Source: Acidimicrobiia bacterium (lineage in GTDB: Bacteria; Actinomycetota; Acidimicrobiia; Acidimicrobiales; MedAcidi-G1). From it: 64,000 nt of DNA. Below the pieces are notes generated by a model that saw only the letters and a program-made list of their open reading frames with translations, did not search any database and was not told the origin of the DNA. Where the stretch lies: assembly GCA_012959995.1 (NCBI GenBank), contig DUCC01000010.1:1-64000 (forward strand). Reading direction: 5' to 3'. Within the stretch, counting starts at the first letter, position 1, and each line of letters opens with the position of its first letter. Below are positions 23,710-25,564 of this stretch, piece after piece. The position numbers and the translations under genes were made by a program.

Positions 23710-24912
23710 TTACCGGTCGGTAGCCACCACGCCACGGTCGATAAGTCCGCCAATAACCGCCGACCCTAGGCCCAAATCCTCAGCCAAAATTTGTTCCGTG
23801 TGCTGACCCAAACGCGGCGCCGTAGCCGCCCCCCGCTCAACCCCCGCAAAAGCCAACGGCGAACCAGGCACCAGGTGCTGGCCCACCCCCGGTTGATTCA
23901 AATCAGCAAACATCGGGTTGGCCGTCGAACACCGTGGGTCTTCTTGCGGCAACTGCGCAAACGTTCGATACGGCCCCCAACACACCCCATGAGCATCAAG
24001 CGCCTCCGCCACCTCGCTCAAGGTTCGACCAGCAAACCACGGGCCGAATACCGTTCGCAAATCTTCACGGGCCAAAAAGCGCTGCCCCTCATCAGAAAAA
24101 TCCACCCCCAACGAAACCGACAATGCAGCCACCGCATCAACCGTTTCGGTAGCCGCCTGCAACCCTCGCCACTGCTTCGGGCTAATAGCCACCACCATGA
24201 CACGCCGGCCATCGCTCGTAGTAAAGTCCGTGCCATACGCCCCATAAAGGTCGTTGCCAATAGGTTGACGCTCCGTGCCATTAATTTGCGCCTCAGCCAA
24301 ATTACCCAACATGCCCACCGTGGCCAACGCCACATCAGCCAACGCCAACGCCACCAACGAACCCTGACCAGTTCGCGTGCGCTGGCGATCAGCAGCCAAC
24401 AACCCAACCGCCGCCATCTGCCCACACATTAAATCCCACGCCGGCACCACATTATTAACAGGACGCTGATCATCAGCAAAACCAGTAGCTGCCGGATACC
24501 CCACCGCACAATTCACCGTGTAATCCACCGCCGTAGTGCCATCGTGACTACCCGTAATAGCCACCATCACTAAATCCTTTTTGCGCTGACTAAGGCGGTC
24601 ATAAGACATCCACCCGCCCGCCGGAAAGTTCGTCAAAAAATTACCCGCCCCAGCAATCAACTCGGTGAGTAATTCTTGAGCTTCGGGGTCTCGCAAGTTG
24701 ACCGCCAACGAACGTTTACCTTTGTTTAAACCGTTCCAATACAAGCTCACCCCGTCGCCGGTAAGCGGCCAGCGCTGATGATCTATCCCACCACCTAAGG
24801 CATCAAAACGTATGACATCAGCGCCCAATTGCGCCAAAGTCATACCGCCCGAAGGGGCAGCCACAAAAGCCGACCCCTCCACTACCCGCAGGCCGTCTAA
24901 AGGCCGAACCAC
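23710..24912 (-). CDS. CoA-transferase family III (CaiB/BaiF), second copy
   Basis: The 400-residue protein starts with GTG and PLDGLRVVEGSAFVAAPSGG, the family N-terminus, and has FLTNFPAGGWMSYDRL and a C-terminal RLGQHTEQIL block. At the place of the catalytic Asp it reads LVALALADVALATVG. It resembles actinobacterial 2-methylfumaryl-CoA isomerase-like members, in which CoA moves within one molecule. That assignment is tentative. Its start is only two bases after the stop of the UGA-containing peroxiredoxin gene, so the two are probably co-transcribed. Confidence 0.85.
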   Translation of the reverse strand: MVRPLDGLRVVEGSAFVAAPSGGMTLAQLGADVIRFDALGGGIDHQRWPLTGDGVSLYWNGLNKGKRSLAVNLRDPEAQELLTELIAGAGNFLTNFPAGGWMSYDRLSQRKKDLVMVAITGSHDGTTAVDYTVNCAVGYPAATGFADDQRPVNNVVPAWDLMCGQMAAVGLLAADRQRTRTGQGSLVALALADVALATVGMLGNLAEAQINGTERQPIGNDLYGAYGTDFTTSDGRRVMVVAISPKQWRGLQAATETVDAVAALSVSLGVDFSDEGQRFLAREDLRTVFGPWFAGRTLSEVAEALDAHGVCWGPYRTFAQLPQEDPRCSTANPMFADLNQPGVGQHLVPGSPLAFAGVERGAATAPRLGQHTEQILAEDLGLGSAVIGGLIDRGVVATDR

Positions 24913-24914
24913 CG

Positions 24915-25382
24915 TTAACTCAACGCGGCAATATCTGCCAACAAGTCATCAGCATGCTGATCCAATGTTTTGGACTCATTCAAGTCGTAGGTCTTAGCAA
25001 TAGTGCCGTCCGGGGCAATGAGATAAGTAATGCGCTGCGGATAATCAGAAAACGGGGTGCCCGCAGGACGCTCCGCTTCATAAGCCGCACCCATAACCCG
25101 GTCGGGGTCTGACAACAAGGCGTAGCCAAAACCCTCCGCATCAGCGAAAGTTTTTTGTTCTTCAACGGTGTCAAAACTGACGCCAACGGCCACCGCATTG
25201 GCGGCCGTAAATTCGGAGGCTCGATCACGGAGCCCCCCTCCTTGAATCGTTCAACCAGGGGTACTGGCTTTGGGGTACCACCAAAGGGCCACCCACTTAC
25301 CGGCCAGATCACCCGAACTCACGGTGCTGCCGTGCTGATCAGGCGCCGAAAAAGCCGGCGCTGCACTCCCTACTTCAAGCAT
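24915..25382 (-). CDS. Probable selenoprotein peroxiredoxin (Bcp/PrxQ type) with in-frame UGA at the peroxidatic position
   Basis: The frame opens at ATG 25382 behind a strong GGAGG site and reads through one TGA (25253-25251, codon 44) to TAA at 24915, giving 155 residues, the normal Bcp length. Before the TGA come WVALWWYPKASTPG and after it TIQGGGLRDRASEF, so the TGA stands exactly where Bcp proteins have the peroxidatic Cys (TPGCT). Later blocks, LLSDPDRVMGAAYEAE and ITYLIAPDGTIAKTYD, match the family. No other stop or frame change interrupts it. The natural reading is selenocysteine insertion, and a SECIS-like hairpin follows at once. The protein has no Cys, and the usual resolving Cys position reads Gly. 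It would reduce hydroperoxides through the selenol, then need an outside thiol. Decoding is inferred, because no sel genes are in the window. A Cys-to-stop mutation is the alternative. Confidence 0.85.
25210..25250 (-). promoter_or_regulatory. Candidate bacterial SECIS hairpin directly after the UGA
   Basis: From the first base after UGA the RNA can fold as a lower stem AUUC with GAAU, a five-base bulge (AAGGA), and an 8-bp upper stem GGGGGCUC with GAGCCUCC (one G-U pair) closed by the seven-base loop CGUGAUC. The loop starts 22 bases after the UGA, with G as its second base followed by U. Bacterial SECIS elements lie in this place, within the coding region, and usually have a G among the first two loop bases. 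Confidence 0.7.
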
Positions 25383-25564
25383 ATTTTCCTCCAAAAGTTT
25401 CGAACAGCCAAGACCCTAGTGCAACGCAGCCAAGCAACAGCAACTAGCGGACGCGTAAGGCGATACCCCTCCCTCAACGCCCGCTTCGGAAAGAAGTGAA
25501 CAACAAGGTTAGGCTGCCCCTACCGGCCGGTAACCCACCGGACCAAAAAACGAGGAGACCCCCC

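Follow-up and report, generated by a model that had tools for sequence, protein, structure and literature searches.

Does the UGA inside a peroxiredoxin frame of an Acidimicrobiia bacterium end that frame, or does it encode selenocysteine (Sec) at the catalytic position of a full-length enzyme? The frame lies in the window, the 64,000-nucleotide stretch of contig DUCC01000010.1 that was analysed as a whole, and the features discussed here are collected in Table 1. A sequence-only reading of this DNA had described one frame of 155 codons, with an ATG behind GGAGG and a single interruption by UGA at codon 44, and translation of the minus strand agrees: codon 44 is the sole in-frame TGA, and the residues around it read ...WVALWWYPKASTPG-U-TIQGGGLRDRA.... 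The family motifs had been said to continue on both sides without a change of frame, and the match to Pfam AhpC-TSA (PF00578; 106 bits, residues 4-130) does cross the UGA. The protein combines this domain with the T-x-x-U motif (T41-P-G-U44) by which Sec peroxiredoxins (Sec-Prx) of COG1225 (Bcp) are recognized. TPG-UGA-T had been equated with the context of the peroxidatic Cys in Bcp proteins, and more distant Bcp homologues indeed align a Cys at codon 44, so that the in-frame UGA falls where homologues have their catalytic Cys, as in selenoproteins. The best sequence matches among solved structures were Bcp/PrxQ-type chains, and the best plasmid matches were annotated bcp genes with less than 60% identity.

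Table 1 Features of the peroxiredoxin locus (window positions)
Feature	Position	Strand	Basis
CDS, predicted Sec-containing Bcp/PrxQ-type peroxiredoxin, 155 residues	24915..25382	-	translation; Pfam AhpC-TSA; model pLDDT 97
TAA stop of peroxiredoxin CDS	24915-24917	-	
UGA codon 44, predicted selenocysteine, peroxidatic position T-P-G-U	25251..25253	-	TGA in homologues; Cys in distant Bcp
SECIS-like hairpin, stem GGGGGCUC/GAGCCUCC, 7-nt loop CGUGAUC	25215..25237	-	synonymous-codon test; covariation
Shine-Dalgarno GGAGG, 5 nt before peroxiredoxin ATG	25388..25392	-	read directly
CaiB-type CoA-transferase-like gene (presumed), directly downstream of peroxiredoxin	23710..24912	-	sequence recognition

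The first in-frame start 3' of the UGA is a GTG at V64, from which the product would be 92 residues long, the length of the fragment that automated annotation had been expected to report. Standard gene calling would cut the enzyme to this fragment, and the selenium dependence of these bacteria is therefore easily missed.

The sequence-only reading had proposed that homologues be compared for Cys or UGA at this codon. When 395 genomes of the class were searched with the protein, each of the 34 best rows among the close homologues contained exactly one internal TGA; the nine genomes of the same family, among them the source genome, all had the UGA gene. In a scan of named genomes, which overlaps in part with the genes of the class search, the catalytic codon was TGA in all 80 of the best loci (79 read by script, that of L104 by eye) and the flanking frame was intact; these loci came mostly from metagenome-assembled genomes (MAGs) labelled Acidimicrobiia or Actinomycetota, with a few labelled Deltaproteobacteria or Myxococcota. 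Altogether about 100 distinct relatives share a UGA at the peroxidatic codon, which is therefore no product of chance. Downstream of the UGA, the window gene differs from its closest relative by nine synonymous and two nonsynonymous codons.

In a maximum-likelihood tree built from 119 different sequences, a well-supported branch of 102 contained 100 Sec sequences; the other two, a Cys and a Ser sequence, nest within it on long branches, and their exact placement is uncertain. With so few Cys orthologues in the branch, Sec appears to have been retained for a long time. In G190, the genome of the Cys sequence, no selA was matched, which is what a change from Sec to Cys after loss of the machinery would predict. 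Ser occupies the catalytic position in the other sequence (L132, G263:C39), whose genome still contains selA. A separate Bcp with UGA at the peroxidatic codon and a Cys kept at +5 was seen in three genomes (L147, L148 and L151 in G144, G391 and G082), which suggests that Sec arose more than once in the Bcp proteins of the class.

Decoding of UGA as Sec calls on dedicated genes, and the further proposal to look for selA, selB, selC and selD elsewhere in the genome found all of them present. The source genome is a draft of 2.03 Mb in 37 contigs (96.7% complete), and it encodes a UCA-anticodon tRNA-Sec (C14:61366-61457), whose 63.4 bits exceed the gathering score of 47, together with selA (395 bits), selB (272.6 bits, directly after selA on one contig) and selD (L018, G000:C20:36449-37369; 361 bits), each protein scoring above its curated family cut-off. 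This is the full set expected together in a genome that decodes Sec, and selD carries an in-frame UGA of its own in the motif GAG-U-GCK. By counts tallied by hand, a selA above the cut-off occurred in 35 of the 37 genomes that have the UGA peroxiredoxin versus 21 of 43 comparison genomes lacking the UGA gene, the latter hand-picked from the same search. The two UGA-gene genomes with no selA match, G188, which is incomplete (79%), and G362 (96% complete), weigh against the Sec reading.

We also examined the RNA immediately 3' of the UGA. A SECIS-like hairpin begins 17 nt from the T of the UGA, and its apical loop is small and contains G, as has been described for bacterial SECIS elements (PMC1088965). 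In a synonymous-codon test, in which the protein was held fixed, synonymous codons were redrawn and folding energies compared, the window's own stretch gave p 0.002 (computed for L052, which has the identical 27-nt stretch). The mean z was -1.71 for 54 distinct UGA genes, 28 of them individually reaching p<=0.05, versus -0.43 for 13 Cys genes. Among 49 distinct sequences, standard pairs occupied 88.5% of pair cells versus 83.1% in shuffles, and changes on both sides of a pair numbered 33 versus 8.2, counts that are inflated by the relatedness of the sequences. RNAfold of a 56-nt stretch gave no significant departure from dinucleotide shuffles (z-score 0.25), perhaps owing to the G-richness of that stretch; the synonymous-codon and covariation tests put the question more specifically. 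Where other residues follow RD, members kept the same CGUGA loop with a slightly shifted stem register. Simple folding did not find the hairpin in Myxococcota-labelled members, and an Rfam scan of the window gave no matches. The simple Acidimicrobiia hairpin is missing from four UGA members (L105, L108, L122 and L126) whose MAGs carry Deltaproteobacteria or Myxococcota labels; transfer, mis-binning or a different SECIS are all possible in these cases.

These data bear on three other readings of codon 44, all of which we rejected. Were the TGA a sequencing or assembly error for TGC or TGT, the protein would be an ordinary Cys peroxiredoxin, and in a draft genome of 37 contigs one wrong base would suffice; the independent assemblies of about 100 distinct homologues, with TGA at the same codon, already refute this, the covarying hairpin also speaks against a base error, and we see practically no chance that it is correct. 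A true stop would leave either a decayed pseudogene or a 43-residue fragment with a 92-residue internal product. UGA does serve as the ordinary stop in 9 of 28 long open frames of the window and the GTG at codon 64 is available as a start, but the frame beyond the UGA has been kept throughout the class, with changes mostly at third positions, and the genome has the Sec machinery, making this reading very improbable. The same 9 of 28 frames ended by UGA count against an alternative code in which it would be recoded as tryptophan or another residue, a reading that has the open frame alone in its favour; the genome has a normal tRNA-Trp(CCA), codon 44 aligns with the catalytic Cys of Cys homologues, and the likelihood of such a code is negligible.

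We favour a Sec-containing peroxiredoxin of Bcp/PrxQ type, its UGA44 decoded by way of a SECIS element and the enzyme probably resolved externally, and as a whole we hold this explanation to be very nearly certain. The gene had been called a probable selenoprotein beforehand, and the sel genes, the homologues that keep the UGA and the conserved hairpin now strongly support that prediction. From these sequences we infer that Sec is actually inserted at codon 44: SelB with Sec-tRNA(UCA) would decode the UGA, directed by the SECIS hairpin lying just 3' of it inside the coding sequence. Sec44 would stand in for the peroxidatic Cys and, if the predicted peroxidase activity holds, attack H2O2 or organic hydroperoxides to form a selenenic acid.

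An AlphaFold2 model, made with the window protein and relatives, has a mean pLDDT of 97 and superposes on BcpB (5epf) with a TM of 0.90. In the Bcp family the usual resolving position is a Cys at +5, and a second Cys occurs there in 12 of the 13 Cys Bcp homologues examined. The window protein has Gly49 at +5 of codon 44 and no Cys residue at all. No Cys was found anywhere in 20 of 30 UGA loci and none of the 30 had one at +5, where a Cys occurred in one of 79 UGA loci from named genomes. Because the window protein has no Cys, Sec44 is probably resolved by an external thiol or a reductant of thioredoxin type in a '1-Sec' cycle, in which Sec44 would work alone by analogy with 1-Cys AhpE.

Comparison with characterized systems places the protein within a known family. 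Peroxiredoxins of COG1225 (Bcp, TxxU) are listed among bacterial selenoproteins in reviews (PMC9312934; PMC13188914), and Sec-Prx contributed 43 genes to the Sargasso Sea set (PMC1088965) and 253 to the GOS set (PMC2398784). The present proteins share with Sec-Prx, which is abundant in marine metagenomes, the Bcp-type thioredoxin fold (PF00578) and T-x-x-U at the peroxidatic position; they differ in being assigned to Acidimicrobiia genomes and in mostly lacking the resolving Cys. PrxU (NCBIfam NF040737) has the peroxiredoxin fold in common and matched weakly (29.1 bits, residues 1-129), but its cut-off of 270 bits lies far above that score and its length is 233 positions, so the window protein is not a PrxU member. 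The 2-Cys Bcp/PrxQ proteins (Mycobacterium tuberculosis BcpB, 5epf; Xanthomonas campestris PrxQ, 5iiz) share the fold and the TPG-(C/U)-T motif, whereas nearly all Cys homologues examined carry a second Cys at +5, where the window protein has Gly. M. tuberculosis 1-Cys AhpE (1xxu, 4x0x) has a similar fold (TM 0.89) and one reactive active-site residue and may work alike, although that residue is Cys rather than Sec and sequence similarity is lower (32 bits).

The sequence-only reading was right that Sec peroxiredoxins were already known, marine metagenomes included (PMC9312934, PMC1088965, PMC2398784). Its view that one would be unusual in such an actinobacterium is unsupported, since the family is catalogued and the Sec form is widespread, indeed usual, in Acidimicrobiia. 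A literature search for Acidimicrobiia with selenocysteine or selenoprotein/peroxiredoxin returned no report of this lineage, with many subscription papers outside its reach. What is mildly notable is a protein free of Cys in a clade without the +5 resolving Cys. A definite lineage can now be assigned to a family of selenoproteins known so far largely through metagenome reads.

The downstream neighbour is presumably a CaiB-type CoA-transferase-like gene, named by recognizing its sequence and not by a family search. Of 110 loci searched, some of them duplicated between collections, 35 have it next to the peroxiredoxin, and this adjacency makes co-transcription of the two genes probable in the nearer relatives. 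We give an even chance to the broader proposal of a class-wide Acidimicrobiia lineage of single-Sec Bcp proteins, often Cys-free, with an external reductant of its own and possibly linked functionally to the CoA-transferase-like gene.

Searches with a few families gave four further selenoprotein candidates in the source genome (SelD, SelW-like, AhpD-like and UGC Prx-like), all from families listed for the ocean metagenome (PMC2398784). An Acidimicrobiia genome of about 2 Mb thus combines the whole Sec-decoding apparatus with five or more selenoprotein candidates, the peroxiredoxin included. The SelW-like (Rdx) candidate (L159, G000:C16:21120-21329) has its in-frame UGA in CVPU, followed by a hairpin, and the AhpD-like (CMD) candidate (L163, G000:C22:5549-5782) has an in-frame UGA in CHYU. 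The fourth, a long Prx-like protein (L156, G000:C36:29320-29655), contains W-U-G-C and matches the catalogued family of UGC-containing Prx-like selenoproteins.
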